Shown: piece after piece, positions 1,741 through 15,856 of the stretch
Position numbering within the stretch: the first letter of the stretch is position 1
Layout: the number at the start of each line of letters is the position of its first letter
Origin: SAR86 cluster bacterium
Lineage (GTDB): Bacteria > Pseudomonadota > Gammaproteobacteria > Magnimaribacterales > TMED112
Reading direction: 5' to 3'
NCBI GenBank assembly: GCA_016779525.1
Contig: JADHNL010000012.1
Span: 1 to 32,308 of the forward strand
DNA length: 32,308 nucleotides
Notes under the pieces: model-generated
Seen by the model: only the letters and a program-made list of their open reading frames with translations
Databases searched by the model: none
What the model was told of the DNA's origin: nothing
Position numbers and translations under genes: made by a program

Positions 1741-2826
1741 ATGAAGTTGGGTGTTCCAAAAGAGATAAAAAACAACGAACATAGGGTAAGCCTTACTCCG
1801 CAATCCGTCGGCCGTCTTGCAAAATTGGGAGCCGATGTTCTTGTTGAAAAATCTGCTGGCCTGGAAATAGGTTTTACGGACGAGATGTTTGTTAATAATG
1901 GTGCAACTATTCTTGATACTGCAGCAGAAATATTTTCAAATTCCGAATTAATTATTAAGGTAAAGGAGCCGCAAGAAGAAGAGCTTAAATACCTTACGCC
2001 AGAAAAGACACTGTTCACTTATTTGCACTTAGCTGGCGACAAACAACAAGCAAAAAAACTGCTTGAGACTGGCGTCACGGGTATAGCATATGAAACTGTT
2101 ACAGCCTCAGATGGCTCTTTGCCCCTTTTGTCCCCCATGAGCAAAATAGCTGGAAAGATAAGCATCGTTGTTGGTCAGTACTACTTACTTAAACCAAACA
2201 AAGGCATAGGCACATTGTTGGGCAGCGTTGATCAAATAGAACCAAGAACAGTAACAGTAATAGGGGCAGGCGTAGCAGGCAAAGAAGCAATAAAAAAGGC
2301 CATTTCAACCGGCGCAAAAGTTAATATTCTTGACTTATCCCCACCCAAACTTTCTGACCTAGAAGCTGAATTTGGTTCTACCAATATCAATTATTTAATC
2401 TCATCTCAGGAAAGAATTGTTGAATGCATTTCATCTTCAGATCTCGTTATTGGTTCAGTTTATGTTGTTGGTAAAGAAGCGCCTAAGGTGGTAACCAAAG
2501 AGATGTTGTCTGAGATGAAATCAGGAAGTGTCATGGTTGACATTTCTATTGACCAAGGGGGATGTTTTGAGACCAGCAAGCCTACAACTCACGATGACCC
2601 AATTTATAAAGTTGAGGACGTCACACATTATTGTGTAACAAATATGCCTGGAGCTGTGCCACTTACTTCAACCCTTGCTCTAAATGAAGCTACCCTGCCA
2701 TTCATTGAAGAGATTGTTAAAAGTGGTCTTAGCAAAAGTCTTAGTGACAATGAGCATTTGGCTGCTGGGGTAAACATAATGGGTGGCAAAATTATCCATC
2801 CAGCAATTAAGGAGGCGCTCAATTAA
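1741..2826 (+). CDS. ald: Alanine dehydrogenase
   Basis: Catalyses reversible NAD-dependent oxidative deamination of L-alanine to pyruvate and ammonium; a soluble enzyme, usually hexameric. The 361 residues match the family length (about 370). Visible residues agree with the characterised enzymes: R15 in KNNEHRVSLTP, K75 in KVKEP, H96 in YLHLAGD and D271 in ISIDQGG. The Rossmann fingerprint VTVIGAGVAG lies at about 171-180, and the C-terminus has the usual GVNIMGGKIIHPAI. The start is set by the family N-terminus MKLGVPKEIK. No Shine-Dalgarno sequence is seen. The next gene's ATG follows the stop codon directly, so ald probably leads or belongs to the operon that continues to 4919. Related transhydrogenase alpha subunits lack this motif set. 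Confidence 0.95.
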   Translation: MKLGVPKEIKNNEHRVSLTPQSVGRLAKLGADVLVEKSAGLEIGFTDEMFVNNGATILDTAAEIFSNSELIIKVKEPQEEELKYLTPEKTLFTYLHLAGDKQQAKKLLETGVTGIAYETVTASDGSLPLLSPMSKIAGKISIVVGQYYLLKPNKGIGTLLGSVDQIEPRTVTVIGAGVAGKEAIKKAISTGAKVNILDLSPPKLSDLEAEFGSTNINYLISSQERIVECISSSDLVIGSVYVVGKEAPKVVTKEMLSEMKSGSVMVDISIDQGGCFETSKPTTHDDPIYKVEDVTHYCVTNMPGAVPLTSTLALNEATLPFIEEIVKSGLSKSLSDNEHLAAGVNIMGGKIIHPAIKEALN

Positions 2827-3111
2827 ATGGTGAAGATTCTTTTTATCATTGTTGTTTTCCTTGTAACGTCTTGTATAGCTATTCTTAAAGCAAAAAATTT
2901 TAAGGCAACTTGGATGTTTGCTATTAGATGGGTTTTTGGACTGTTTGTTTTGTTTGCCCTGAATCTTTTTAATGAGGCTTTTCTCTTTGAGTGGCTGGGC
3001 TGGAATGGCACAAATAAAAATGACTGGGTTTTTGTGCTATGGTGGGGATTGGTATTTTCATGGTTTATATATGGCTTTGGAATGCTATTTAGAAAATTAC
3101 GTGATAAATAA
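2827..3111 (+). CDS. Small membrane protein next to membrane hydroxylase, 94 aa
   Basis: The 94 residues carry three predicted transmembrane helices (about 3-20, 29-47 and 66-85), with aromatic-rich boundaries such as EWLGWNG and WVFVLWWGLVFSW, and a basic tail (RKLRDK) that should face the cytosol. The ATG directly abuts the ald stop codon, and its own TAA overlaps the next ATG as TAATG, so translational coupling to the sterol-desaturase-like gene is likely. I recognise no family. A role as a small partner of the hydroxylase is inference from position only. Confidence 0.65.
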   Translation: MVKILFIIVVFLVTSCIAILKAKNFKATWMFAIRWVFGLFVLFALNLFNEAFLFEWLGWNGTNKNDWVFVLWWGLVFSWFIYGFGMLFRKLRDK

Positions 3112-3935
3112 TGAGACCTGAAACTTTATTTTTGCTTGGTGTTTGGTTGGTTTTTGTCATTCTAGAAATCTACCAAAAGAAATTCTTCAACAAACCAAGA
3201 GAAAAGTCGTCAGATGGCATAGTTGAGATAGTTACGGGTGTGATGTTGTTATTTTTTATCCAGCCCTTTGTTGTTGCTTCAGGATATTTTCTTACCTCTC
3301 AAGTAGCGCCTGATGCCCAAGACTTAATTTTAAATTGGCCATTTCTTGCTGTCTTCGGTTTGCTGTTGTTGCTTGATGATTTAACACAGTATTGGTGGCA
3401 TCGAACTGTACACAACGTTCCTATGCTTTATCATTTGCATAGACCTCATCACGAAGCTGAATACTTATCGGTGAGAATTGTTTATCGCAATAATCCATTT
3501 TATTACTTATTCATGCCAAGCTTATGGTTTTCTGGCATGTTGCTTTTCTTGGGTTCTGGATGGGTCTACGTTGTTTACATATGCATGAAAATGACGGTGA
3601 TCTATGGTGCACACTCAGACATCAGATGGGACAAGCCTTTGTATAAAATTAAATGGCTTTCTCCTTTGATGTGGTTTGTCGAACGCACTATATCTACTCC
3701 AGCAACTCATTTTGCCCACCATGGAAAATATAAATCAGACCCAAACACTAACTATAAAGGCAATTATGGCAACTTTTTATTTCTATGGGATGTTATTTTT
3801 GGCACAGCGATAATCACCAGAGATTATCCTAAGGAGTTTGGAGTAGAAAATTTAAAATCTGCTCCGATGTTTTACCAAATCTTTTGGCCATTTGTGCAGC
3901 CACCTAAAGAGTTAATTCAGAATAGCAATGAATAA
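3111..3935 (+). CDS. Fatty acid hydroxylase / sterol desaturase family membrane protein
   Basis: A 274-residue integral membrane protein of the di-iron superfamily that hydroxylates or desaturates lipids, sterols or carotenoids with O2. The histidine boxes are all present: H97 and H101 (WWHRTVH), H110 with H113-H114 (HRPHH), H168, and H200 with H203-H204 (HFAHH). Hydrophobic segments at about 5-20, 41-63, 75-90 and 132-165 supply the membrane part. The histidine spacing fits the superfamily, so an active metal site is likely. The substrate cannot be read from sequence; the closest general type is the bacterial sterol-desaturase-like group, which also includes alkylglycerol monooxygenase-like proteins. 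It overlaps its upstream neighbour by one base (TAATG) and the downstream one by eight, placing it in the middle of a coupled operon with an alpha/beta hydrolase. Confidence 0.9.
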   Translation: MRPETLFLLGVWLVFVILEIYQKKFFNKPREKSSDGIVEIVTGVMLLFFIQPFVVASGYFLTSQVAPDAQDLILNWPFLAVFGLLLLLDDLTQYWWHRTVHNVPMLYHLHRPHHEAEYLSVRIVYRNNPFYYLFMPSLWFSGMLLFLGSGWVYVVYICMKMTVIYGAHSDIRWDKPLYKIKWLSPLMWFVERTISTPATHFAHHGKYKSDPNTNYKGNYGNFLFLWDVIFGTAIITRDYPKEFGVENLKSAPMFYQIFWPFVQPPKELIQNSNE

Positions 3936-4221
3936 AGCAGGCCTATATTTTGCCTATATACTAATTTACACATCACCCATTCAAGCGGGCTTCATCTTAT
4001 GGCAACTATGGATAGTTTTAACCTCAGATTACACTTTTTTTGGTTTATCAACCAAAGAGTTTCTGGTTGATAACCTTAAATTTCTACATGATTGGATATA
4101 TTCTTGGTTTTGGAACGCTTTGCTTGATTTCTTTTATCAATTTCCTGCAGTGGTTATGACTACTTTGAAGCTGGTTGTTAATACCTGGCTTGGTTACTGG
4201 TTGCTCGCAAAATATAAATGA
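3928..4221 (+). CDS. Small membrane protein following the hydroxylase, 97 aa
   Basis: The ATG lies inside the last codons of the hydroxylase gene (eight-base overlap). The 97 residues have hydrophobic helices at about 6-32 and 74-93, plus an aromatic-rich amphipathic centre (FLHDWIYSWFWNALLDFFYQF) that may lie along the membrane. The stop overlaps the next start as ATGA. The chain of overlaps implies co-translation with the hydroxylase and the hydrolase. I recognise no family, and no catalytic residue pattern is visible. Confidence 0.6.
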   Translation: MNKAGLYFAYILIYTSPIQAGFILWQLWIVLTSDYTFFGLSTKEFLVDNLKFLHDWIYSWFWNALLDFFYQFPAVVMTTLKLVVNTWLGYWLLAKYK

Positions 4222-4919
4222 AACAACTTCTTTTTATCTTATTTTTTGTTCAATTTTTTTTCTATCCAAATAGCCTTGACCTAATAAACAGCAAAAAAAA
4301 TGTTTTCGAATCTGGCCTAGTTTTAGTTCAACTAAAAAATGGGTTGCATTTTTTAGAGGAGGAACAAGAGGCCCAGAAAGAGCTAGTTATTGCCATTCAT
4401 GGCGGCGGCACACTTGGATACGAATGGGTCTATCCACTCAACCAACTTAATTCCGAACGCACAAGGGTTGCTTTTTTTCGATGGAATCCAATTTCAGCAA
4501 CATGCGCTAACGAAGAGCTTCGTTATTTGAAATCATTTATTGGCGATATCAGCAGTCAGTATGAAAAGATTACTATTTTAGGACATAGTTTGGGTGGCAT
4601 TCTCCTGGCTAGGTTGATTGAAGATTTAGAAACCAATGCACCTGTAGAGGCGCATATTATTGCGTCGCCACTAAAAGGCATTGAGCCAACAAATAGCCTA
4701 TGCGATTATCAGCCACCTATGAAAGTTAGTAACAATGTTGTTCTCTACGAATGGCGAACACAAAAAAAACTGGATGGTATATTTATGGCCCTTCCATACG
4801 ACCCTCAGATAGTAGAAATTGAAAATAGCACTGTAACAAGACTTCCAGAAAAGTATAAGGAAAACAAACTTGGCCATAACTGGTCAATTAGCTGGGTTGT
4901 TGACAAAATTAGTAATTAG
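4218..4919 (+). CDS. Membrane-anchored or exported alpha/beta hydrolase
   Basis: After an N-terminal hydrophobic leader (about residues 3-17, anchor or signal peptide), the 233-residue protein shows the alpha/beta-hydrolase pattern: LVIAIHGGG at about 57-64 (oxyanion loop), the nucleophile elbow GHSLGG with Ser124, and a likely catalytic His220 in LGHNW near the C-terminus. The acid is less clear; D186 or D195 are candidates. Related proteins are esterases, lipases or thioesterases, but the substrate is not evident. It is the last gene of the overlapping run from ald and begins in an ATGA overlap. A function in cleaving or releasing a lipid handled by the hydroxylase is inference from neighbourhood. 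Confidence 0.75.
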   Translation: MKQLLFILFFVQFFFYPNSLDLINSKKNVFESGLVLVQLKNGLHFLEEEQEAQKELVIAIHGGGTLGYEWVYPLNQLNSERTRVAFFRWNPISATCANEELRYLKSFIGDISSQYEKITILGHSLGGILLARLIEDLETNAPVEAHIIASPLKGIEPTNSLCDYQPPMKVSNNVVLYEWRTQKKLDGIFMALPYDPQIVEIENSTVTRLPEKYKENKLGHNWSISWVVDKISN

Positions 4920-4944
4920 CTTTTTAACTCTCTTTTGTTAGAAT
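4916..4944 (+). promoter_or_regulatory. Candidate sigma-70 promoter for the nitronate monooxygenase-like gene
   Basis: TTAGCT (4916-4921), a 17-base spacer and TAGAAT (4939-4944) lie 21 bases before the ATG at 4966. The -35 is weak and the -10 is good; the 46-base gap is one of the few here that could hold a promoter. Confidence 0.4.
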
Positions 4945-4965
4945 CTTATTTTTCCACATTAAAAA

Positions 4966-5940
4966 ATGTTGCCAGATATTCTAAAAAATAATCTAAGCAT
5001 CCCAGTTGTTGCTGCACCACTATTTATTATCTCACGACCAAACCTTGTAATCGCTCAATGCAAAGCGGGCGTTGTGGGGTCTTTTCCAGCACTTAATGCA
5101 AGGCCTCAAGAATTGCTATCAGACTGGATCAAACAAATTAAAGATGAGCTGGGTGAATACCAAGAACAAAACCCTGGCAAGAAAGTTGCCCCTTTTGCCG
5201 TAAATCAAATTTGTCACTTATCAAACGATAGACTGTTGGCTGATGTTGAGACATGCGTTAAGCACCAAGTGCCAATTATCATTACATCTTTACGACCACC
5301 AGCTGACCTTGTGAAAGCAATACACTCATACGGCGGTCTTGTCTTTCATGACGTCATCAACACAAGACATGCCCAGAAAGCAGTTTCCGAAGGTGTCGAT
5401 GGTTTAATTCTTGTTTGTGCTGGTGCTGGTGGCCATGCTGGTGCCCTGTCGCCATTTGCACTATTAAGAGAAACTAGAGAGTGGTACGATGGCACAATTT
5501 TATTGTCTGGAGCAATTTCAGATGGTTACTCAGTAGCAAGTGCTTTAGCTATGGGTGCAGATCTTGCCTACGTTGGCACAAGATTTATTGCCACCCAAGA
5601 ATCAGAAGCTGAGGATGAATACAAACAAATGCTGATCGACTCTTCTGCAAAGGATGTGGTCTATACCAATTACTTTAGTGGTGTGCATGGCAATTATTTA
5701 TCACCATCGGTTATTAAGTCAGGCATGGATCCAGACAACTTACCAGAGGCAGATAAGACAAAAATGAATTTCAATTCAGGTGGCAATGCATCAAAAAAAG
5801 TTTGGAAAGACATTAAAGGTTGTGGCCAAGGCCTAAGTCCAATTAAAGATTCACCAGCAGTTACTGACTTGGTGGATAATATGAGGAACGAGTTTCTAGA
5901 GGCATCAAAAGCTTTTGCATCAAAAAGTTCTTCTTATTAA
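4966..5940 (+). CDS. Nitronate monooxygenase-like FMN enzyme (2-nitropropane dioxygenase family)
   Basis: A 324-residue TIM-barrel flavoenzyme of the family that oxidises alkyl nitronates such as propionate-3-nitronate to the carbonyl and nitrite; related proteins include FabK enoyl reductases. Seen in the sequence: PVVAAPLF near the N-terminus, GVVGSFPALNARP, the phosphate- and FMN-binding end of the barrel (GADLAYVGTRFIAT), and AGAGGHAG with H157 at the position of the family's catalytic histidine. Because family members are often annotated broadly, nitronate oxidation is probable, not proven; it may be a detoxification enzyme. The gene stands alone with its own candidate promoter and runs tail to tail into the next gene, overlapping it by four bases. 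Confidence 0.85.
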   Translation: MLPDILKNNLSIPVVAAPLFIISRPNLVIAQCKAGVVGSFPALNARPQELLSDWIKQIKDELGEYQEQNPGKKVAPFAVNQICHLSNDRLLADVETCVKHQVPIIITSLRPPADLVKAIHSYGGLVFHDVINTRHAQKAVSEGVDGLILVCAGAGGHAGALSPFALLRETREWYDGTILLSGAISDGYSVASALAMGADLAYVGTRFIATQESEAEDEYKQMLIDSSAKDVVYTNYFSGVHGNYLSPSVIKSGMDPDNLPEADKTKMNFNSGGNASKKVWKDIKGCGQGLSPIKDSPAVTDLVDNMRNEFLEASKAFASKSSSY

Positions 5941-6668
5941 ATCTGTAGCTGAAACCCAAGAAAAACTTCGTTTTCTAAATATTGAGAAGTTTTAAGGCCC
6001 ATTAAAATGCCAAAGTTTTTTGTTGCGTTGTAGGTAATATCTAAGACAGCTTTTATGTCTGTGTCGTCAGAAAACTCTATAACCAAGTCATCAACCAAAC
6101 AGACTTCGACATCAGGTGCACAAGGCTCATAGTTGATTAAAGTTTCCTCGTTCTCAACTTCTTTAGAAAGATCAAAATAGATACGCCCTTCCCAATCATT
6201 GGCATCACCAAATCTTAGTCCAGCAACTACGCTGCCAAATGATTCGTCATTATCAAATGAGGTATCAAATGAAAAGCTTTTTACACCACCCTCAACAAAG
6301 ACATCAACTACGTTTTGAAGGTTTAATGATACAGATCCTACCGATATTGAATTCAAAAGATCGCCTATACCAACATGAACTCCAAGTCTTAATGTATTTA
6401 CGGTCTTCTCAAATTCAGCGTCTTCGGCATCAAGGCTGCGCAGATTTGTCCCATAAGCTACTCTAGAAGCTGTGACATACAAGGGCCCCGGCAAAGGTAA
6501 GCTACCATAAAAGCCTATATTGTCCTCTTCGTTGTAAGACAAGAGCAAACCAAGATGGCCATATGAATAATCATTTGGCTCTTTTCCAAATCTGCCATCT
6601 TTTGCATTTAGGACACCAGAAGATAGCAATAAAGATAGAATGATTAATAGAAATTTTTTATGGATCAT
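5937..6668 (-). CDS. Putative outer-membrane beta-barrel protein
   Basis: The N-terminus (MIHKKFLLIILSLLLSSGVLNAKDG) is a typical signal peptide with likely cleavage after LNA. The rest of the 243 residues alternates hydrophobic and polar residues in short strands separated by acidic loops (for example GHLGLLLSYN, TLRLGVHVGIG, AVLDITYN, FGILMGLKT, VFLGFQLQI), as in small outer-membrane barrels. The last residue is Ile and not the usual Phe/Trp. C182/C189-region cysteines (EPCAPDVEVCLVDD) could form a loop disulphide. No specific family is recognised; function is unknown. It converges with the nitronate monooxygenase gene with a four-base overlap. Confidence 0.65.
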   Translation of the reverse strand: MIHKKFLLIILSLLLSSGVLNAKDGRFGKEPNDYSYGHLGLLLSYNEEDNIGFYGSLPLPGPLYVTASRVAYGTNLRSLDAEDAEFEKTVNTLRLGVHVGIGDLLNSISVGSVSLNLQNVVDVFVEGGVKSFSFDTSFDNDESFGSVVAGLRFGDANDWEGRIYFDLSKEVENEETLINYEPCAPDVEVCLVDDLVIEFSDDTDIKAVLDITYNATKNFGILMGLKTSQYLENEVFLGFQLQI

Positions 6669-6677
6669 CTTGAGTTA

Positions 6678-6706
6678 AGTATAAACATTATTATTAACTT
6701 AAATAA
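6678..6706 (-). promoter_or_regulatory. Candidate promoter for the barrel protein gene
   Basis: On the minus strand, TATACT (6678-6683) lies nine bases before the ATG at 6668, with a weak -35 (TTATTT, 6701-6706) at 17-base spacing. The predicted transcript would start only about 3 bases before the codon. A six-base inverted repeat, TTAAGT (6675-6680) and ACTTAA (6697-6702), overlaps the box and might be an operator. Confidence 0.35.
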
Positions 6707-6727
6707 GATTTAAACAATCTAGCATCT

Positions 6728-6756
6728 TTAATAATTGCTAATGTTTTCAGTATAAT
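6728..6756 (+). promoter_or_regulatory. Candidate leaderless promoter for the prolyl-4-hydroxylase-like gene
   Basis: A perfect -10 TATAAT (6751-6756) is followed by exactly six bases and then the ATG at 6763. A partial -35, TTAATA (6728-6733), stands at 17-base spacing. Transcription would start at or next to the A of ATG, leaving no room for a ribosome binding site. Confidence 0.5.
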
Positions 6757-6762
6757 AATCAC

Positions 6763-7554
6763 ATGGATGTAGCCGGTTTTGTAATAGCAATCTTTGCACT
6801 AATATTTTCCATTATTGCTTTGGGGCTTGCGATGCGAGCTTTATATATTATTGGTGTAAATGCTGGACTTGATAAGAAAGTTTCGCAAAACAACCCAGTA
6901 CCAGCAGTTAAGTCACCAGCCTCTGTTAAAAAGTTTAAAGATCCCATAAGAACTGAAGACAATAAAATTATCTACAACGAAGACCCGTTAATTTATGTCA
7001 TTGAAAATTTTATTTCCGAAGAAGAGTGTCAGCACTTTGTTGATGAATCCCGAAGCAAGCTTGAGAGAGCTAAAACCATTGGCGGCAAAGACGGCATTTA
7101 CCATGAAAACAGAACAGGTATGAACTGTTGGGTGCACCATGGACATTCAACTATATCAAAAGCAGTTGGCGACAGAATAGCTGATCTAATCGGTTTTCCA
7201 CTCAAGAATGCTGAATCGTTTCAGGTTGTTTACTATACTGGCGGCACGCAGTACAACGATCATCACGATGCTTTCAACCATGAAACAGATGAAGGCAAGA
7301 AGCACCTTAAAAGAGGTGGACAAAGAATCTATACAGCTCTTGGTTATCTTAATGATGTTGAAGAAGGCGGCTCGACAGAATTTAGAGATTTAAATATTTC
7401 GGTAAAACCAAAAAAAGGTAGCCTTCTAGTTTGGAAGAATGTCTTACCTGGTACAACAAAAGTTCATCCCGATTCACTCCATGCGGGACGTCCTGTAACA
7501 AAAGGAGAAAAGTTTGCTTTTAATCTATGGTTTAGAGAAAACAAGTTTGTTTAA
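6763..7554 (+). CDS. Prolyl 4-hydroxylase-like Fe(II)/2-oxoglutarate dioxygenase
   Basis: A 263-residue protein of the P4H alpha-subunit type: an N-terminal transmembrane helix (about 4-30), a linker to 60, then a double-stranded beta-helix domain. The iron ligands are H167 and D169 in NDHHDAF and the distal H240 in SLHAGRPV, and K250 in GEKFAFNLWF fits the 2-oxoglutarate carboxylate contact. These enzymes use O2 and 2-oxoglutarate to hydroxylate proline or other residues; bacterial substrates vary. The hydrophobic N-terminus suggests inner-membrane anchoring, with the catalytic domain presumably cytosolic, where 2-oxoglutarate is available. It heads a plus-strand unit with uvrD three bases after its stop. 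The substrate is not inferable from this window. Confidence 0.85.
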   Translation: MDVAGFVIAIFALIFSIIALGLAMRALYIIGVNAGLDKKVSQNNPVPAVKSPASVKKFKDPIRTEDNKIIYNEDPLIYVIENFISEEECQHFVDESRSKLERAKTIGGKDGIYHENRTGMNCWVHHGHSTISKAVGDRIADLIGFPLKNAESFQVVYYTGGTQYNDHHDAFNHETDEGKKHLKRGGQRIYTALGYLNDVEEGGSTEFRDLNISVKPKKGSLLVWKNVLPGTTKVHPDSLHAGRPVTKGEKFAFNLWFRENKFV

Positions 7555-7557
7555 ATC

Positions 7558-9729
7558 ATGGATGTCTCCTTCATTCTTGATGACCTTAATGACGAGCAGC
7601 GCCAAGCCGTAACATCTGAGTCAAAGAAACTCCTGGTTTTAGCAGGCGCTGGGTCAGGAAAAACAAAAGTTTTAGTACACAGGATAGCCTGGCTAATAAA
7701 AGCATTAGGCTATTCAACTCACAGCGTTCTGGCTGTAACTTTTACTAATAAGGCAGCAAGTGAAATGACTGGCAGAATTGAACTGATTCTGGAGCAGCCA
7801 ATTCCAGAATTGTGGTGTGGAACCTTCCACTCAATTTCAAACAAAATCCTAAGAAGGCACTATAAAGAAGCTGGACTAGAAAGAGATTTTTCTATTCTAG
7901 ATAGCGATGACCAACTTCGTATAATTAAGAGAGTTCTTAAAAGACTAGAAATTGACGATGAACAATGGCCTGCGGAAAAGGTTCGTTGGCAAATAAATAA
8001 CTGGAAAGATGATGGGTTAAGGCCTAATGACATCGACGACAAAGGAGATTTTAATCTTGAAATTTTGAAAAAAATATATCTTGAGTATGGTAATTATTTG
8101 GATAGCGAAAATCTTCTTGATTTTGGTGAGCTGATTTTAAGGTCTTACGAATTAATTAAAAATAATGCAGAACTACAAAGAGTTTATCGCAGCAAATTTC
8201 AAAACATTCTTATTGATGAGTTTCAAGACACCAATACAATCCAATTCAAATGGATAAATAATCTTGTTGGCGAGCGTTCAAATGTTACGGCTGTGGGTGA
8301 CGATGACCAGTCCATCTATGGTTGGCGAGGTGCAAAAATAGAAAATATAAATAAATTTGCAAAGGGAAAAGAAACAGAAATGGTTCGACTAGAACAAAAC
8401 TATAGATCAACTGAAAATATTTTGAATGCAGCAAACGCTGTTATCGGAAAAAATTCAAATAGGTTAGGTAAAAAGCTTTGGACAGCTGGCAACAAAGGAG
8501 AGCTAATAGAGGTATTTGAAGCATATAGTGAACAAGAGGAAGCAAGTTTTATATCAGATAAAGTAATCAAGATCTCACAAGAAGGCGATCAGTACAAAGA
8601 CATAGCAGTACTCTATCGATCAAATGCCCAATCGCGAGTAATTGAGGAATTTTTACTACGGGAAAATCTACCATATGTTATCTATGGCGGCGTAAGGTTC
8701 TACGAACGTCTTGAAATAAAAAATGTCCTTAGTTACTTGAGGCTTTGTGTTAATTTCAGTGATAATTCAGCATTTGAAAGAGCCATTGGAGCACCAACTA
8801 GAGGGATTGGCGAGAAAACGCTCGCCATGATACGAGAACATGCTACTCAGTCAAATACATCGCTTTTTGCTGCCTCCAAACAACTGCTTACTAATGATTT
8901 GATTAAAGGTAAGGGTGGTTCGTCTTTGGGTGGTTTTATCTCTTTCATAGAAAAAGCCTCTGAAACAATTCCTGAAATGCCTCCACATGAATTTGTTGAA
9001 ATGGTCATAAACCAAAGCGGACTCATTGAACATCATCTTAAAGAAAGAGGCGAAAAAGGAAAAATAAGAATAGAAAATATTAACGAGTTAATTTCCGCAG
9101 TTAAATCATTTGATACTCTGAATAAGGGCGAAGATCTTTCAGAGTTTGGGTCGGTAATTGCTGCATTTTTAAGCTCAGTGTCATTGGATATGGGAGAAAC
9201 ACAAGCTCACAAAGCCGATGATGCTGTGCAGCTAATGACATTGCACTCAGCTAAAGGACTTGAATTTAAGTATGTATTTATGGTGGGCATGGAAGAATCC
9301 ATATTCCCGCATTCAAGGTCTTCAGAAAACATTTCAGAACTAGAAGAAGAACGACGGCTGTGCTATGTGGGTATAACTAGAGCCAGAGCTAAACTACATC
9401 TAACATATGCGGAATTCAGAAGACTCTATGGTCAAGATTCTTATAACCCACCCTCAAGGTTCATAAATGAAATCCCAAACGATCATTTAGAATTTGTTCG
9501 ACCAAGACAAAATTATTCCACCAGCTATTATGGAACAGTGTCTCAAATTAAAGAGGAGCATAACGACTTTGAATTTAATCTCGGCGATAACGTGCGCCAT
9601 AAAACCTTTGGTGATGGGGTTGTTCTTAGCATGGAAGGAAGCGGTGATGCTGCTCGCATACAGGTAAACTTCTATGAGGTAGGAACAAAGTGGTTGGTAG
9701 CGGCTTATGCCAATCTACAAAAAATATGA
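7558..9729 (+). CDS. uvrD: DNA helicase II (UvrD)
   Basis: A 723-residue superfamily 1A 3'-to-5' helicase of nucleotide excision and mismatch repair. Motifs in order: QRQAV (Q motif region), AGAGSGKT (Walker A, about 31-38), TFTNKAASEM (Ia), LIDEFQDT (II), GDDDQSIYGWRGA (III), LEQNYRST (IV), LMTLHSAKGLEF (V) and VGITRARAKL (VI). The C-terminal GDNVRHKTFGDGVV... QVNFYEVGTKWL is the UvrD-type tail, which separates it from Rep, and the length equals E. coli UvrD (720). It follows the hydroxylase gene by three bases and overlaps lipB by four bases (ATGA). All motifs are intact. Confidence 0.96.
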   Translation: MDVSFILDDLNDEQRQAVTSESKKLLVLAGAGSGKTKVLVHRIAWLIKALGYSTHSVLAVTFTNKAASEMTGRIELILEQPIPELWCGTFHSISNKILRRHYKEAGLERDFSILDSDDQLRIIKRVLKRLEIDDEQWPAEKVRWQINNWKDDGLRPNDIDDKGDFNLEILKKIYLEYGNYLDSENLLDFGELILRSYELIKNNAELQRVYRSKFQNILIDEFQDTNTIQFKWINNLVGERSNVTAVGDDDQSIYGWRGAKIENINKFAKGKETEMVRLEQNYRSTENILNAANAVIGKNSNRLGKKLWTAGNKGELIEVFEAYSEQEEASFISDKVIKISQEGDQYKDIAVLYRSNAQSRVIEEFLLRENLPYVIYGGVRFYERLEIKNVLSYLRLCVNFSDNSAFERAIGAPTRGIGEKTLAMIREHATQSNTSLFAASKQLLTNDLIKGKGGSSLGGFISFIEKASETIPEMPPHEFVEMVINQSGLIEHHLKERGEKGKIRIENINELISAVKSFDTLNKGEDLSEFGSVIAAFLSSVSLDMGETQAHKADDAVQLMTLHSAKGLEFKYVFMVGMEESIFPHSRSSENISELEEERRLCYVGITRARAKLHLTYAEFRRLYGQDSYNPPSRFINEIPNDHLEFVRPRQNYSTSYYGTVSQIKEEHNDFEFNLGDNVRHKTFGDGVVLSMEGSGDAARIQVNFYEVGTKWLVAAYANLQKI

Positions 9730-10319
9730 GCATAGAAATCATCAATAAAGGACTCATGGACTACCAAGAATGTCATCAGGAGATGTTGGAGCTAGTTAAA
9801 TCGACCTCGCGCAAGAATCAAATATGGCACCTAGAACATTTTCCAGTATTCACCATTGGCATTAGTGAAAAACTTATAAAAGAGAATAAAAACGAAAGGA
9901 TTCCAATTCTAAAAACTGATCGTGGCGGCAAAATTACCTATCATGGCCCAGGCCAGCTCGTGTTTTATTTTATGCTGGACTTAAAAATAATGCCTTTTAG
10001 ACCTACTGACTTGACGAAAACGATATTAAATAAAACATCTCAAGTTTTTAAAAGCATTAGCCTTGATCATGAACTAAATTTCACAGATCCAGGCATTTAT
10101 ATTGAAGAACAAAAAATTGCATCTATTGGTATGAGGATAAAGAACAACTTTTCATACCATGGTATCAGCATAAACTATAATACAGACTTAAAAGCCTTTA
10201 ACAGCATCAACCCCTGCGGTTTGAATGTAAAAGCTTGCAATTTGCTGGAATATATAAATATTAATAAAGAAGATCTACATAAAAAGTTAATTAAAGAATA
10301 CCTAGAACTAGATAAATAA
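9726..10319 (+). CDS. lipB: Octanoyl-[acyl-carrier-protein] protein N-octanoyltransferase
   Basis: LipB moves the octanoyl group from acyl carrier protein to lipoyl domains of 2-oxoacid dehydrogenases and GcvH, the first step of de novo lipoylation. At 197 residues it fits the family. Seen: DRGGKITYHGPGQL (residues 65-78), the catalytic lysine K130 in QKIASIGMR, and the catalytic C164 in INPCGL. A longer reading frame from 9690 exists, but the ATG at 9726 overlaps the uvrD stop as ATGA and gives the normal LipB N-terminus. Its TAA overlaps lipA's ATG (TAATG), so LipB and LipA are probably coupled, as their successive reactions suggest. N-terminal spacing is slightly variable among homologues. 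Confidence 0.94.
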   Translation: MSIEIINKGLMDYQECHQEMLELVKSTSRKNQIWHLEHFPVFTIGISEKLIKENKNERIPILKTDRGGKITYHGPGQLVFYFMLDLKIMPFRPTDLTKTILNKTSQVFKSISLDHELNFTDPGIYIEEQKIASIGMRIKNNFSYHGISINYNTDLKAFNSINPCGLNVKACNLLEYININKEDLHKKLIKEYLELDK

Positions 10320-11287
10320 TGAAAGATATTATCCCAACTGTAAAAATAGTTAATCATGCAGGAGTCTCATCAGTCAAAGACGGCATGAAAGGCAATTTAT
10401 ATTCACAGGTAGAGAGAGAACAGAAACCAAAGTGGATACGCATTACAGCAAATCATGCAAATAAAAATTTTGAGCTAATAAAATCTAAAGTTAACAACCT
10501 GCAACTAAGCACTGTATGTGAAGAAGCTAAATGCCCAAACCTTTCAGAATGCTGGTCGAGAGGGACAGCCACATTTATGGTTATGGGTGATACTTGTACA
10601 AGAGCTTGCCAATTTTGTTCCGTTAATACAGGCAATCCCAAAGGATGGCTTGATGCAGATGAGCCAAGAAAAATAGCGGAAACCGTTGAGCTTATGGGCA
10701 TTAAATATGTTGTACTTACCTGTGTAACTAGAGATGATTTGTCCGACGGTGGAGCAGCACACTTTGCAGAAACCGTCGCAGAAATTAAAAATAAAAATCA
10801 GCTTATCGAGGTAGAGGTGCTTACCTCAGACTTCAATGGCAATGATGAAGCAATATCAACCATAGTGAGTTCACCTATAAAGGTTTTTGCTCAAAATATT
10901 GAAACAGTTGAAAGGTTAACCCATCCTATTAGGGATCCCCGTGCAGGCTATCAGAAGACGCTAACAGTTTTACAAAGAGCCAAAGAATTCAATCCAAACA
11001 TACTAACAAAATCAAGCATCATTCTTGGTATGGGAGAAACAGATGAAGAAATCAATCAGACATTTAGTGATCTTAAAGATCATAACGTTGATATTGTTAC
11101 CCTCGGTCAATACTTAAGACCAACGCTAAATCACCACCCTATTGATAGGTGGGTTACGCCAGAAGAGTTTGAAGAATACAGAATCCAAGGTCTAAAATAT
11201 GGGTTTCTTGAAGTTGTATCTGGTCCTATGGTAAGGTCTAGCTATAGAGCTGAAAGAGCACTGGATTTTAATAACGCAGGATTATAA
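10319..11287 (+). CDS. lipA: Lipoyl synthase
   Basis: A radical SAM enzyme that inserts two sulfur atoms into the octanoyl chain made by LipB. The 322 residues carry both clusters: C67, C72, C78 (CEEAKCPNLSEC, auxiliary cluster) and C93, C97, C100 (CTRACQFC, SAM cluster). The serine of RSSYR (306-310) fits the auxiliary-cluster ligand. The length equals E. coli LipA (321). The ATG overlaps the lipB stop by one base. It is followed three bases later by yaaA. Every residue needed for activity is present. Confidence 0.97.
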   Translation: MKDIIPTVKIVNHAGVSSVKDGMKGNLYSQVEREQKPKWIRITANHANKNFELIKSKVNNLQLSTVCEEAKCPNLSECWSRGTATFMVMGDTCTRACQFCSVNTGNPKGWLDADEPRKIAETVELMGIKYVVLTCVTRDDLSDGGAAHFAETVAEIKNKNQLIEVEVLTSDFNGNDEAISTIVSSPIKVFAQNIETVERLTHPIRDPRAGYQKTLTVLQRAKEFNPNILTKSSIILGMGETDEEINQTFSDLKDHNVDIVTLGQYLRPTLNHHPIDRWVTPEEFEEYRIQGLKYGFLEVVSGPMVRSSYRAERALDFNNAGL

Positions 11288-11290
11288 AAA

Positions 11291-12034
11291 ATGATTTTAA
11301 TTTCACCAGCCAAAAGACTTATCGATAGAGAAAATATCAGCAACTTAAAGGTTAGCCAACCAATTTTTCAGTCTGAGGCAAACAAGCTGGCTAAGCAAAT
11401 GGCAAAATTAAGCAGCAAAGAGTTGCAGTCTTTAATGGGAGTTAGCGAAGACATTGCCAAACTTAATCAACACAGATACAACAATTGGAACAATACTAAT
11501 AATCTTGAAAATAGAGCAATCTTTCAGTTTGAGGGCGATGTCTATAAAAACTTAGATGCATCTAGTTTAAGCAGCGAAGAACAAGATTATTTAAACAAAA
11601 ATTTAAGAATCTTATCGGGCATATATGGAGTATTGAAACCTTCAGATGCCATGAATCCATACCGGCTAGAAATGGGCACAAAGCATGATTTTTTAGGAAA
11701 CAAAGATTTGTATGAATTTTGGGGCAGCAAGATAGCTGATGCTATCAATAAAGAACTTGGCGACAATTATTTGTTTAATTTGGCGTCAGAAGAATACTAT
11801 GCGGCAGTGAAAAAACACCTTAACTCAAATAGAGTGATAGATTTTAAATTTGCATCACTTAAGGACGAGAAGTTAAGAGTGATTGGAGTTATTGCCAAAA
11901 GGGCCAGAGGTGAGATGGCAAGGTTTCTTGTGAAAAATAAAGTCAACTCTCTTGATCCAATCAAAAAATTTTCAGCGCTCGGGTTTAGTTTTCAAGAATT
12001 TAAAGATAACGAATTCATTTTTGTGCAGAAATAG
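11291..12034 (+). CDS. yaaA: YaaA peroxide-stress protein (DUF328)
   Basis: A 247-residue member of the YaaA family; in E. coli, YaaA lowers intracellular unincorporated iron and limits damage during H2O2 stress (OxyR regulon), and it has a DNA-binding HhH-related fold. Seen: ILISPAKRLID at the N-terminus, then LMGVSEDIAKLNQHRY, ILSGIYGVLKPSDAMNPYRLEM and NLASEEYYAAVK, as expected. The start is four bases after the lipA stop. Its place after LipA, an oxygen-sensitive Fe-S enzyme, suits a protective role, but linkage may be chance. Its stop is three bases from the end of a small minus-strand frame. Confidence 0.93.
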   Translation: MILISPAKRLIDRENISNLKVSQPIFQSEANKLAKQMAKLSSKELQSLMGVSEDIAKLNQHRYNNWNNTNNLENRAIFQFEGDVYKNLDASSLSSEEQDYLNKNLRILSGIYGVLKPSDAMNPYRLEMGTKHDFLGNKDLYEFWGSKIADAINKELGDNYLFNLASEEYYAAVKKHLNSNRVIDFKFASLKDEKLRVIGVIAKRARGEMARFLVKNKVNSLDPIKKFSALGFSFQEFKDNEFIFVQK

Positions 12035-12037
12035 TGC

Positions 12038-12190
12038 TTAAGAACTTTCTTGATCTAAAAGTTCGTCAACTATCTCTAAAAGCTCATCAACCATTTCAAA
12101 TGTCTCGTGAAATGACAGCACGACTTCTCTATCTTTGCTAAGTAGCACCAAGCCTTTTCGAAGTTTTTGTAGTTTATCTATATTGCTCAT
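12038..12190 (-). CDS. Possible small acidic protein, 50 aa
   Basis: An ATG-to-TAA frame on the minus strand, MSNIDKLQKLRKGLVLL... ending VDELLDQESS, fills the space between yaaA and the rpoH promoters. The N-terminal half is basic and the C-terminal half strongly acidic, with leucines in a heptad-like pattern (LLEIVDELL), which suggests a helical, perhaps coiled-coil protein. No Shine-Dalgarno sequence or convincing promoter is visible upstream. It is too short for family recognition and could be a chance frame; the regular amphipathic pattern favours a real gene. Confidence 0.4.
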   Translation of the reverse strand: MSNIDKLQKLRKGLVLLSKDREVVLSFHETFEMVDELLEIVDELLDQESS

Positions 12191-12241
12191 CGTAAGCGTG
12201 TATTCTAATGAACTTTTCTCTCAAAGTAACGTCAAATTTAT

Positions 12242-12271
12242 TTGAAAAATAGCATTTTTTAGTGCTAATAT
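12242..12271 (+). promoter_or_regulatory. Second candidate promoter upstream of rpoH
   Basis: TTGAAA (12242-12247), an 18-base spacer and TAATAT (12266-12271) lie upstream of the stronger promoter at 12281-12309. Multiple promoters for rpoH are usual in enteric bacteria, which makes a second one reasonable; the site itself is only moderate. Confidence 0.35.
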
Positions 12272-12280
12272 ATTTACCCG

Positions 12281-12309
12281 TTGCTATAAAGATAAACAAT
12301 CTTTATAAT
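12281..12309 (+). promoter_or_regulatory. Sigma-70 promoter for rpoH
   Basis: TTGCTA (12281-12286), exactly 17 bases, and a perfect TATAAT (12304-12309) lie 18 bases before the rpoH ATG at 12328. The implied 5' leader is about 12 bases, so it is too short for the long structured thermosensor known in E. coli rpoH. Confidence 0.65.
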
Positions 12310-12327
12310 TACATATAAGAATTTGTT

Positions 12328-13176
12328 ATGAGTTACGCATTAGCTTTAGCAAACCCAGGGTCAGACATAGATAAATATTTGGCCCAGGTTTATACAATAC
12401 CTGTTCTATCAAGAGAAGAGGAGCTCGAGCTCACCCAAGAATTCTTTAAAACAGAAGATGTAAAACTTGCACATAAGTTAGTTATTTCTCACCTTAGGTT
12501 CGTTGTGCACATCGCAAAATCTTATGCTGGCTATGGTTTGCCGCTGGCAGATATTATTCAGGAAGGCAATGTTGGTCTCTTGAAGGCAGTCAAGAAATTT
12601 GATCCAGATAAAGGGGTTAGGCTTGTTTCATTTGCCGTTCACTGGATTAGAGCTGAGATACATGAATTTATTCTAAAAAACTGGAGAATAGTCAAAATTG
12701 CAACAACAAAAGCTCAAAGAAAATTGTTTTTCAATCTAAGAAGTAAAAAACAATCCACTGGTTGGCTTACTGATGCTGAAGCCAAAAAGATAGCTGAGGA
12801 TTTGGATGTTTCTGTTAAAGAAGTTATGCATATGGAAAATAGACTTAACTCAACAGATTCTGCATTTGATCTTGGTGTTGATGATGAAGATGATGAGAGA
12901 GCCTTCTCTCCAAGCCAATATTTAGAGGATCATTCATTCAGCCCAGAGCAAATTGTTGAGCAGGAAAACTATGAACAGATTAATCATGGTGCTCTTTTGA
13001 AAGGGGTGGCAAATTTAGACAGAAGATCTCAAGAAATTGTTAGATCAAGATGGCTGGATGATGAAAAGCTAACACTCAATGAATTGGCAGACAAGTTTGA
13101 TGTATCAGCAGAAAGAATTAGACAAATTGAGGCAACGGCATTTAAAAAGCTTAAAGCCAGTCTTTGTAATGTCTAA
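12328..13176 (+). CDS. rpoH: RNA polymerase sigma-32 factor RpoH
   Basis: The heat-shock sigma factor, directing RNA polymerase to chaperone and protease genes. At 282 residues it matches E. coli RpoH (284). The regions are in order: region 1.2 (about 14-45), 2.1-2.4 with DIIQEGNVGLLKAV and SFAVHWIRAEIHEF (75-114), the RpoH box QRKLFFNLR (130-138), which identifies sigma-32 as opposed to sigma-70 or sigma-S, and region 4.2 with the helix-turn-helix LTLNELADKFDVSAERIRQIE near the end. Two candidate sigma-70 promoters precede it. The very short predicted leader argues against the E. coli-type mRNA thermosensor; control may rely more on protein turnover. No Shine-Dalgarno sequence is visible. 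Confidence 0.96.
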   Translation: MSYALALANPGSDIDKYLAQVYTIPVLSREEELELTQEFFKTEDVKLAHKLVISHLRFVVHIAKSYAGYGLPLADIIQEGNVGLLKAVKKFDPDKGVRLVSFAVHWIRAEIHEFILKNWRIVKIATTKAQRKLFFNLRSKKQSTGWLTDAEAKKIAEDLDVSVKEVMHMENRLNSTDSAFDLGVDDEDDERAFSPSQYLEDHSFSPEQIVEQENYEQINHGALLKGVANLDRRSQEIVRSRWLDDEKLTLNELADKFDVSAERIRQIEATAFKKLKASLCNV

Positions 13177-13224
13177 AAACCTCTTTCATTTTCAATCACA
13201 CTTCTCCTTCGATTAATTTCTCCA

Positions 13225-13230
13225 TAAAAT
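13225..13230 (+). promoter_or_regulatory. Candidate -10 box for trmB, leaderless geometry
   Basis: TAAAAT (13225-13230) ends exactly six bases before the trmB ATG at 13237. No good -35 stands at the normal distance, so this is a -10-only candidate. It has the same spacing as the box before the gene at 6763. Confidence 0.3.
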
Positions 13231-13236
13231 CTTAGG

Positions 13237-13854
13237 ATGATAAGAACCTATAGTTCACGTGCTGGAAGACTATCAGATACTAATAGAAAGTATTTAGATC
13301 TGTCATCAAAATGCTTGGTAGAGCTTGGCTATGTTCCAAAATCAGCTAGACCTTGTGCGCTTGATATTGGTTTTGGTGATGCAAAATCGTTCTCAGAGGA
13401 TGTGCTTGTAAACCAAGATATAATTTTTATCGGCGTTGAGCCATATAAAAAAGGCTTTGCTCGGGCAGTTGAGTTCTATGAGAAGCATTTGCCAAAAAAT
13501 TTGTTCCTCTACAATGGATGCTCAATAGGGTATCTGAAGGCAGCAAAACAAAGATTCAATTTTATAAGGATCCATTTTCCAGACCCATGGCCAAAGAAAA
13601 AGCACGCAAAGAGAAGATTAATATCAAAGGAGTTTTTACAACTTTTATCTAAAAGGATTGTTAAGAAAGGTCAAGTACAAATAGTAACCGACTCAGCCAT
13701 TTATCAAGACCACATTGAAGAGGTAATCAAAGCACAAGATAGTTTGGTGTTAGCCGAAAATAGTTTTCCTATTTCATACAAAGTATCCACTTTTCATGAC
13801 AAAGGGCTGAAGAAAGGGCATACAATTAAAGAATACAATCTGGCAAAAATTTAA
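13237..13854 (+). CDS. trmB: tRNA (guanine-N7-)-methyltransferase
   Basis: Methylates N7 of G46 in the variable loop of tRNAs using SAM. The 205 residues show RTYSSRAGRLS at the N-terminus, the SAM loop ALDIGFGDAKS (41-51), the acidic VEPYKKG end of strand 2, and the family signature RIHFPDPWPKKKHAKRRL (111-128). It is slightly shorter than E. coli TrmB (239), mostly through the N-terminus. It lies 60 bases downstream of rpoH and one base before the acylase gene. All signature residues are present. Confidence 0.93.
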   Translation: MIRTYSSRAGRLSDTNRKYLDLSSKCLVELGYVPKSARPCALDIGFGDAKSFSEDVLVNQDIIFIGVEPYKKGFARAVEFYEKHLPKNLFLYNGCSIGYLKAAKQRFNFIRIHFPDPWPKKKHAKRRLISKEFLQLLSKRIVKKGQVQIVTDSAIYQDHIEEVIKAQDSLVLAENSFPISYKVSTFHDKGLKKGHTIKEYNLAKI

Positions 13855-13855
13855 T

Positions 13856-15856
13856 ATGAAAAAATTACTTTTGACATTCTTGGCTACAAGTTTTTGCTTA
13901 TCTGCTAACTACAACTATGAAGTATCAATAAAAAGAGATATATGGGGAGTGCCACATATTTATGGCGATAGCAATAAAGATGTAGCATTTGGTCTTGCGT
14001 ATGCTCAGGCTGAGGATAATTTAGAAAATATGTTGTTCCATATTTATCTTGGCAGGGGCGAGTTAGCGAAGAAATATGGTAGAAACTTAGCTATATCTGA
14101 CTTTATTGTTAAAGCTTACGATCTGCCGTTGAAGGCTAAAGAAGCATTGAATCAAATATCTCCAGAAACGCTTTCAGTTCTAGAGGGGTTTTCTGCTGGC
14201 ATCAATTACTGGGCAGAAAGAAATAACTATAAGAACAAATTACTACCAATTAAACCAGAAGACATTATCGCGGGATTCGCAATGCAGTCCGTATTTATGT
14301 ATGGACTAGACGAAACCATAGACGAGTTTTTTAGTGCTGATTTGCCTCAAGCGGACTCAAGAGGATCAAACGCTTACGCAATTAATAAAGCTAAATCATC
14401 GGATGGTTCAACTATGATTATGATTAATTCTCATCAGCCACTTGAAGGCCCTGTCACTTGGTATGAAGCACGATTAAAAAGCAATGCAGGTTGGGACATA
14501 ATGGGAGGGATTTTTCCCGGCTCACCATTTATGTTTATTGGTTTCACACCAAATATAGCTTGGGGCGCAACTGTTAATAAGCCTGACTTGGTCGACTTCT
14601 TCAAGCTAGAGGTAAACGATGACGCTACCAAGTATAGATTAAATGGAGAGTGGAAAGACTTTCAATCAAAAGAGATCAAAATCGAAACTAAAATTTTGAA
14701 TCTTTTTTCATTCCCAATTAAACGAGAAGCAAAATTTACAGAACATGGTTTGGTTTTAGAAAGGGGCGATGGTTTTTATGCTGTGAAATTTGTTGGTTTT
14801 GAGAATCTAAAACAAACACAACAGTGGCTTGAAATGAATTTGGCTACTAATTTAGATGAATGGCTAAAAAGCTTTGAAACACAAGCAATACCCTCCATAA
14901 ATTTTGTTTATGCAGACAATCAAAACAATATTAGTTATGTTCACAACAACGTGACTCCTAAGAGATTAAAGGGCTTGAATTGGCAGGATCCAGTTGATGG
15001 CACTAATTCGGAATACATATGGAATTCATACCTGCCAACAAACTCGTCCCCAAAAATTATCAACCCGTTGGATGGCTATGTGTATTCTGCAAACCAGTCC
15101 CCTTTCTTCACAGCTTCTAAAAAAGACAATTTAGCAAGATCCGCTTTTGATGCTGAAATTGGTTTTCAGGAAAACCTGACCAACAGATCAGTTGTGCTAG
15201 GTAGTTTACTTGCAAACAATCAATTTATTACGGAAGAAGATTTTATTGGATTTAAATTTAATAATGAATATTCAAAAGAATTTAAGTTATACAACTACAT
15301 TGAACTAATTAAAGAATCATCGAATCAAAACTCACAGTTTTTACAAGCAAAAAAATTACTCCTGTCATGGGACCTAAAAACGAACATTGAAAATACTGTT
15401 GCACCACTTGGTGTTTGCTACCTTAGAGACTCTTGGGACAATAACAAAGACTTTGATTTGCAAAAATCGGATGAAATTTTGCTGTCTTGCTCCAAAAAAT
15501 TTATAAAAAAAAATTTACAGTGGGGCGACGTCAATAAGTTGGTTAGAGGCAATAAAGAATTAGCCATAAGTGGTGGGCCAGACATTTTACGAGCTGTCTA
15601 CGGCATCCCCTATAAATCCAATAAATTAAAAGCAGTTGCCGGCGATGGTTTGGTTATATTTGTTAAGTGGGATAAGAACGGCAACCAAACGACGAAAAGC
15701 ATACACCAATATGGCAACAGCGAAGATCAGAAATCTTTTCATTACGATGACCAAATGGAGTTATTTGCTCAAGAAAGGTTTAAAGAAACATTTTTTGTAA
15801 CTTCTGAGTTAAGCAATAATTTGAGTTCAGAGTTAAATATTAATGTAGTTAGATGA
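13856..15856 (+). CDS. Secreted penicillin-acylase-family (Ntn) amidase
   Basis: A 666-residue Ntn hydrolase of the penicillin G acylase/AHL acylase family, made as a precursor and cut into alpha and beta chains in the periplasm. The N-terminus (MKKLLLTFLATSFCLSAN) is a signal peptide. The alpha chain has KRDIWGVPHIYGDSNKDV and the glutamate/tyrosine context of the substrate pocket; the autocatalytic site is RG before Ser171 (SNAYAINKAKSS), the predicted nucleophile and start of the beta chain. PFMFIGFTPNIAWGATVNKPDL is the conserved segment after it. Known substrates include penicillins, acyl-homoserine lactones and N-acyl amino acids; which applies is not clear here. It begins one base after trmB and its last 24 bases overlap the convergent yggT-like gene. 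Confidence 0.87.
   Translation: MKKLLLTFLATSFCLSANYNYEVSIKRDIWGVPHIYGDSNKDVAFGLAYAQAEDNLENMLFHIYLGRGELAKKYGRNLAISDFIVKAYDLPLKAKEALNQISPETLSVLEGFSAGINYWAERNNYKNKLLPIKPEDIIAGFAMQSVFMYGLDETIDEFFSADLPQADSRGSNAYAINKAKSSDGSTMIMINSHQPLEGPVTWYEARLKSNAGWDIMGGIFPGSPFMFIGFTPNIAWGATVNKPDLVDFFKLEVNDDATKYRLNGEWKDFQSKEIKIETKILNLFSFPIKREAKFTEHGLVLERGDGFYAVKFVGFENLKQTQQWLEMNLATNLDEWLKSFETQAIPSINFVYADNQNNISYVHNNVTPKRLKGLNWQDPVDGTNSEYIWNSYLPTNSSPKIINPLDGYVYSANQSPFFTASKKDNLARSAFDAEIGFQENLTNRSVVLGSLLANNQFITEEDFIGFKFNNEYSKEFKLYNYIELIKESSNQNSQFLQAKKLLLSWDLKTNIENTVAPLGVCYLRDSWDNNKDFDLQKSDEILLSCSKKFIKKNLQWGDVNKLVRGNKELAISGGPDILRAVYGIPYKSNKLKAVAGDGLVIFVKWDKNGNQTTKSIHQYGNSEDQKSFHYDDQMELFAQERFKETFFVTSELSNNLSSELNINVVR

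Follow-up and report, generated by a model that had tools for sequence, protein, structure and literature searches.

The four overlapping genes at positions 2827-4919 of the window, by which we mean the whole 32,308-nucleotide stretch of SAR86 DNA that was analysed, are probably explained by ordinary gene turnover in a streamlined genome, where a constant sp2-abh pair is preceded by a slot of exchangeable genes, in this case the membrane hydroxylase gene hydA. The window is contig C3 of the genome labelled G000 (827 kb, 24 contigs, 74.5% complete). We use hydA for the 274-aa hydroxylase, sp1 and sp2 for the two small ORFs, abh for the hydrolase-like gene and nmo for the nitronate monooxygenase-like gene; G numbers are genomes of a SAR86-order sample (n=203), L numbers are loci and f2, f3 and f4 are families.

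Layout of the locus and its proteins

The features of the locus are as follows.

1741..2826, + strand: alanine dehydrogenase, upstream border of the proposed variable slot (TIGR00518, 415.4 bits, cut-off 391.85)
2827..3111, + strand: sp1, a hydrophobic protein of only 94 aa with a sporadic distribution in SAR86 (no family over cut-off)
3111..3935, + strand: hydA, 274-aa FA_hydroxylase (PF04116, E=2e-22), histidine boxes intact
3110..3926, no strand: 817-bp block present in G000 and absent in G020 (alignment gap and junction strings)
3928..4221, + strand: sp2, 97-aa Trp/Tyr/Phe-rich helical protein of an orphan family (SAR86-order homologues)
4218..4919, + strand: abh, 233-aa alpha/beta hydrolase-like protein with a hydrophobic leader, usual partner of sp2 (weak Abhydrolase_6)
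4966..5940, + strand: nmo, nitronate monooxygenase/FabK-like gene, downstream border (PF03060, E=3.4e-22)

The original prediction placed four chained ORFs at 2827-4919 with TAATG, eight-base and ATGA overlaps, and both the coordinates and the overlaps (1, 8 and 4 bases along sp1-hydA-sp2-abh) are exact. The chain extends upstream, with the alanine dehydrogenase stop at 2826, 0 bp from sp1. Overlaps are routine across the window, where 14 of 31 same-strand neighbour pairs overlap, 17 of 31 are spaced by -10 to +5 bp and the coding density of the picked ORFs is about 94%, so tight chaining alone says little. The ORFs were picked as the longest frames, hence the starts given for relatives are approximate.

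Both small ORFs encode genuine proteins that are under purifying selection against the related genome G020, with dN/dS of 0.23 for sp1 and 0.055 for sp2. They had been described as two unrecognised membrane proteins. They are real and belong to no library family: neither had a match over cut-off in Pfam or NCBIfam or a PHROGs match at E<=0.1, and the sub-cut-off Pfam matches (DUF5883, BofA, DUF5848) were dismissed as chance. The membrane part of the description is less secure for sp2, in which no 19-residue Kyte-Doolittle window exceeds 1.6. Since clear transmembrane segments are lacking, calling it a membrane protein rests on the Trp/Tyr/Phe-rich helices of a model predicted from the single sequence with no alignment (four helices, pLDDT 77.5, pTM 0.45). 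The description of abh as an alpha/beta hydrolase with a leader likewise holds in part. The G-x-S-x-G motif is the nucleophile elbow of alpha/beta hydrolases and the GHSLGG of abh fits it, and there is one hydrophobic N-terminal stretch at residues 5-23, but the Abhydrolase_6 match in Pfam (E=5e-5, 24.4 bits) is under the cut-off of 26.3. No relative of abh was found among PDB sequences, and neither abh nor hydA had a PHROGs match at E<=0.1.

The prediction of a sterol desaturase-like enzyme with complete histidine boxes was borne out. In Pfam, hydA matches PF04116 with 80.4 bits (gathering cut-off 31), and histidines H97/H101, H110/H113/H114, H168 and H200/H203/H204 are invariant in 18 aligned sequences, the window's included. 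Conserved histidine boxes are the metal site of the FA_hydroxylase family. While hydA shares the domain match and the boxes with the PF04116 superfamily, no substrate-defining subfamily was found for it in NCBIfam; the sole match there, the ornithine lipid hydroxylase OlsE (NF052566), was rejected at 37.5 bits, far under its cut-off of 475. The predicted fold (pLDDT 78.7, pTM 0.80) has no strong structural match. Among Foldseek's matches the best by VIA-align is yeast Scs7p, a fatty acid 2-hydroxylase (4zr0/4zr1; Z 3.9, rmsd 4.8-5.5 over 155-168 residues). Scs7p also comes first in Foldseek, weakly (E=1.6, TM 0.24); the likeness is at superfamily level at most and does not by itself exclude other families. 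Searching PDB sequences with phmmer gave no relative of hydA, Scs7p included, and the only row, a 7S globulin at E=0.27, was judged to be chance.

We infer the biochemical roles of all the proteins at the locus. From knowledge of the family, hydA is most likely a membrane hydroxylase or desaturase that acts on its own and needs neither sp1 nor sp2, a histidine-box oxygenase that would hydroxylate or desaturate an acyl or alkyl lipid chain with electrons supplied by general carriers. The abh protein, with its sub-cut-off Pfam score, may be a serine hydrolase that cleaves an ester and is either exported or anchored. The adjacency of sp2 and abh suggests that sp2 would be the partner of this hydrolase; neither sp2 nor sp1 would be a subunit of hydA. 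Most likely sp1 is a co-resident, sporadic small inner-membrane protein that would be unrelated to hydA catalysis.

The sp2-abh pair and the genes in front of it

As judged from gene content and order, the constant part of the locus is apparently the sp2-abh pair. At strong E (E<=6e-8) sp2 is present in 67 of the 203 order genomes, where rows at E>=0.0015, many of them short or with stops, were dropped, two half-matches in G181 were counted as one place and the match in G190 is partial. Outside the order, the sp2 profile found no credible member in a 321-genome class sample. It matched three of these genomes, namely G000, G020 and a third whose copy has four stops, and the order members G022 and G023 in this sample had no match. 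We found abh in 109 of the 203 genomes (E<=0.001), of which 107 were kept for co-occurrence after dropping the rows of G046 (1e-5) and G041 (8e-4). The two genes lie within 80 bp of each other in 16 genomes, all of the window's genus and all with sp2 before abh, and of the 35 cases with both genes on one contig, the 32 in which they are less than 20 kb apart all have sp2 first. Against expectations that are plain counts over the 203 genomes and ignore kinship and genome completeness, co-occurrence was above expectation for sp2-abh (56 genomes seen, 35.3 expected), sp1-sp2 (15 and 6.9) and sp1-hydA (6 and 2.3, adjacent only in G000), and below it for sp2-hydB (27 and 36.3) and sp2-hydA (2 and 7.3). 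Of the lipid-modifying module in the original prediction, the part that sp2 and abh belong together is supported.

The slot before sp2-abh would be the exchangeable part. Within the genus, sp2-abh is usually followed by an nmo-like gene, and members other than G000 carry hydB, a ceramidase-like protein, a cupin, sp1 or others ahead of sp2. In 21 mapped stretches, the window included, the alanine dehydrogenase (cluster c8) is upstream of the slot in 8 and nmo (cluster c2) follows abh or sp2 in 14. The most frequent name in this list, hydB, is a common 280-aa PF04116 enzyme of SAR86 (L136:6361-7206), for which we listed 110 genomes at E<=4e-99, with the weaker rows coming mainly from a 400-430-aa PF04116 enzyme. 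It shares the PF04116 domain and the position before sp2 with hydA, but hydA is a separate subfamily, the two being 26% identical over 190 residues. In six genus members (G005, G006, G016, G002, G010 and G017) hydB is within 10 bp upstream of sp2, and in two more genomes it is 378-381 bp upstream. In G003 and G008 a cupin is directly before sp2 with hydB behind the cupin, and in G001, G012 and G013 a ceramidase-like protein takes the place directly before sp2. Copies of the ceramidase-like protein (PF05875) directly before sp2 or hydB were seen at L134 7959-8900, L135 7647-8588, L144 8140-9078 and others. Among the 19 genus genomes with sp2, hydB is on the same contig within 4 kb upstream in 10, on a different contig in 2 (G009 and G011) and not found in 7 (G000, G020, G013, G001, G019, G015 and G007), some of which are incomplete. 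The link of sp2 to a PF04116 enzyme in the original prediction is not supported for hydA, and the place of the different subfamily hydB next to sp2 in six genomes speaks against dismissing it outright.

We compared G000 with G020, a genome of the same genus (97% complete) and the nearest relative compared, whose nmo is 96% identical. The gene order in G020 is alanine dehydrogenase-sp1-sp2-abh-nmo, with sp1 and sp2 head to tail and the flanks aligned. The absence of hydA shows as one gap of 817 bp, which the aligner put after 3102, and the missing block spans from an AATGA at 3110 to just before the next AATGA at 3927. In the 14 kb compared there are three larger indels (after 463, at about 1454-1668 and after 3102), all before sp2; from 3920 to 13910 no indel reached 20 bp. 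G020 also lacks most of the 89-aa ORF that precedes the alanine dehydrogenase at 1452-1721, with gaps of 194 and 32 bp in the alignment. Close to the hydroxylase junction, a stretch in the 3' half of sp1 (2977-3096) has 2 mismatches in 120 bp between the genomes, against a mean of 13.4. We did not rely on this near-identity as a sign of recombination at the junction because a longer identical run exists at 11192. In a 14-row nmo tree, G003 and G008 are the nearest kin of G000 and G020 (99/97 for the four).

Compared with sp2, sp1 is sporadic, occurring in 21 of the 203 order genomes (E<=3e-18, G000 included; rows at E>=0.006 were dropped), with internal stops in some copies. It neighbours sp2 in G020, where sp1 is first, and in G171 of family f3, where sp2 is first. 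The G171 pair, at L138 8398-8914, is adjacent in the reverse of the G020 order, and its sp2 is 62% identical to that of the window, against 46-49% for three other f3 copies. This identity pattern may hint at a transfer of the sp1-sp2 pair.

Orthologues and neighbourhoods of hydA

Besides G000, hydA was found in 21 of the 203 order genomes, all of family f3 and 56-60% identical to the window's protein except for one contig-end fragment at 50%. This makes a list of 22 genomes including G000, from which G021 (31% identity) was left out. Within the genus, the 20 genomes examined besides G000 all lack hydA. Orthologues that are 46-61% identical occur in Sphingomonadaceae, Parvularculaceae, Hyphomonas, Paraglaciecola and others. 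The slot of G000 would hold a gene from another PF04116 branch than hydB, with orthologues in an f3 operon and in other Proteobacteria.

These orthologues do not keep the company seen in the window. In 24 loci fetched with the hydroxylase from named genomes, neither sp1 nor sp2 was found in any (tblastn at E<0.01 over flanks of at most 6 kb, less at contig ends), so that the four genes, which had been proposed for comparison across distant genomes, do not stay together there. When the window proteins were searched against 72 loci at the same threshold, sp1 turned up in the locus of G000 alone, and every locus with sp2 came from a genus member. Outside G000, the closest sp1 is 8.4 kb from hydA and the closest sp2 15.4 kb. 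Together with the retention of sp1-sp2-abh without hydA in G020 and the deficit of sp2-hydA co-occurrence, this means that the proposed role of the small proteins as hydroxylase subunits mostly fails.

The SAR86-type hydA loci have partners of their own. In our neighbourhood map, which covers 36 of the 72 loci and counts some SAR86 genomes twice, once from each of two collections, an Mpo1-like gene precedes hydA in 25 of 25 mapped loci of this type and a HODM-like gene follows it in 24 of 25, missing in L067.

L003, L004, L033-L042, L044-L047, L055, L056, L059, L061, L062 and L067-L070: f3-type Mpo1-like - hydroxylase - HODM-like loci

The Mpo1-like (PF06127) and HODM-like (PF11927) genes were identified on the copies of L002, as the Pfam names of the neighbour clusters rest on one member each, or two for a Crp/Fnr-like regulator. 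That regulator is divergent beside the hydroxylase in 5 of 10 non-SAR86 loci (L031, L032, L049, L052 and L053). The hydroxylase of this triad is orthologous to that of the window, but both partner genes are absent beside the window's hydA, and the Mpo1-like gene of G000 is on a different contig. From the triad, a possible function is the 2-hydroxylation with alpha-oxidation of a fatty acid.

In an unrooted hydA tree the SAR86 copies including the window's group together (98/96), as do the f3 copies without it (99/97), and the window's hydA sits in between, with the f3 clade on one side and the remaining Proteobacteria on the other. Other genes of G000 that were compared with f3 span a range of identities (nmo 65-66%, sp2 46-62%) into which that of hydA falls. 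A tree with an outgroup (hydB and L005), in which the window's hydA went with non-SAR86 rows, unstarred (86/86), was set aside for the unrooted tree on account of branch lengths of about 10. The hydroxylase of L051 was left out of both trees. The GC3 of hydA, 0.375 against 0.288-0.367 in ten neighbours, is slightly high and not decisive for transfer.

Alternative readings and biological meaning

We infer that hydA was gained in G000 by transfer or recombination; transfer is the shorter story given that the gene is lacking in G020, in G003/G008 and in the other genus members. The event could also have gone the other way, if hydA were old in SAR86 and most lineages had since lost it. The fuller version of this, in which hydA is ancestral, was kept in G000 and was lost in the other genus members including G020, draws on the SAR86 copies, the window's included, forming one side of a branch and on the f3 genomes, where hydA follows hydB on one strand at a distance of 4-8.7 kb in 10 of 10 same-contig cases, so that a place for hydA near the hydB/sp2 region could be old. 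However, hydA would have had to disappear independently from G020, G003/G008 and the remaining genus members, as well as from f2, f4 and many f3 genomes, and neither f3 partner gene adjoins hydA in the window, which leaves this version rather unlikely in our judgement. It concerns the origin of hydA only and is compatible with the exchangeable slot.

Another possibility is that the locus is a modular one for lipid tailoring, with a constant sp2-abh core that works with an exchangeable hydroxylase. Roughly half of the genus members would use hydB for this, and in G000 it would have been displaced by hydA as a non-orthologous replacement. Two facts that count against the turnover slot speak for this. 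The two PF04116 subfamilies share the place before sp2, hydB in the six genomes with tight spacing (and at the wider spacing in two) and hydA in G000, a pattern that a functional link would also produce; and in all 24 genomes, from two families, that carry hydB and sp2 on one contig, hydB comes first on the same strand at a distance of no more than 20 kb, so the region is not random. Moreover, hydB was found in neither G000 (74.5% complete) nor G020, while it is present in their kin G003 and G008, and hydA fills its place in G000. On the other hand, sp2 and hydB co-occur below expectation, G020 and G001 keep sp2-abh with neither hydroxylase, hydA and hydB are as distant as noted above, and G000 is a single case whose lack of hydB may be an assembly gap. 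We therefore think a modular locus unlikely, and it is quite improbable that sp2 is a SAR86-specific helical partner coupling the exported hydrolase to whichever hydroxylase, hydB or hydA, is present. The original idea of a dedicated module, in which hydA has sp1 and sp2 as small subunits and abh is the lipid-releasing enzyme, could appeal to the overlapping same-strand genes and to the excess co-occurrence of sp1 with sp2 and with hydA. This becomes highly improbable given the orthologue loci free of sp1 and sp2, the distances of 8.4 kb and more outside G000, the presence of both small genes in G020 with no hydA and the commonness of overlaps in this genome. We take the excess co-occurrence as clustering in one variable region, although it also holds the seeds of the bolder, modular reading.

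No literature on the sp1-hydA-sp2-abh gene set was found by titles and abstract starts. Reading the locus as a turnover slot guards against inferring too much from overlapping genes in a compact genome. It also names a conserved unit, the SAR86 pair sp2-abh, the smaller protein of which had no family match in the libraries searched, and it provides a clean, gene-sized presence and absence of a hydroxylase between close relatives. For the function of the hydroxylase, the f3 triad is a better lead than its neighbours in the window. SAR86 bacteria are described as among the most abundant of the surface ocean (PMC11582366), which makes it useful to tell their core lipid enzymes from those whose presence varies. 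If the coupling role of sp2 were true, the locus would be a plug-in site for lipid tailoring, at which lineages swap the oxidising enzyme and keep the core.
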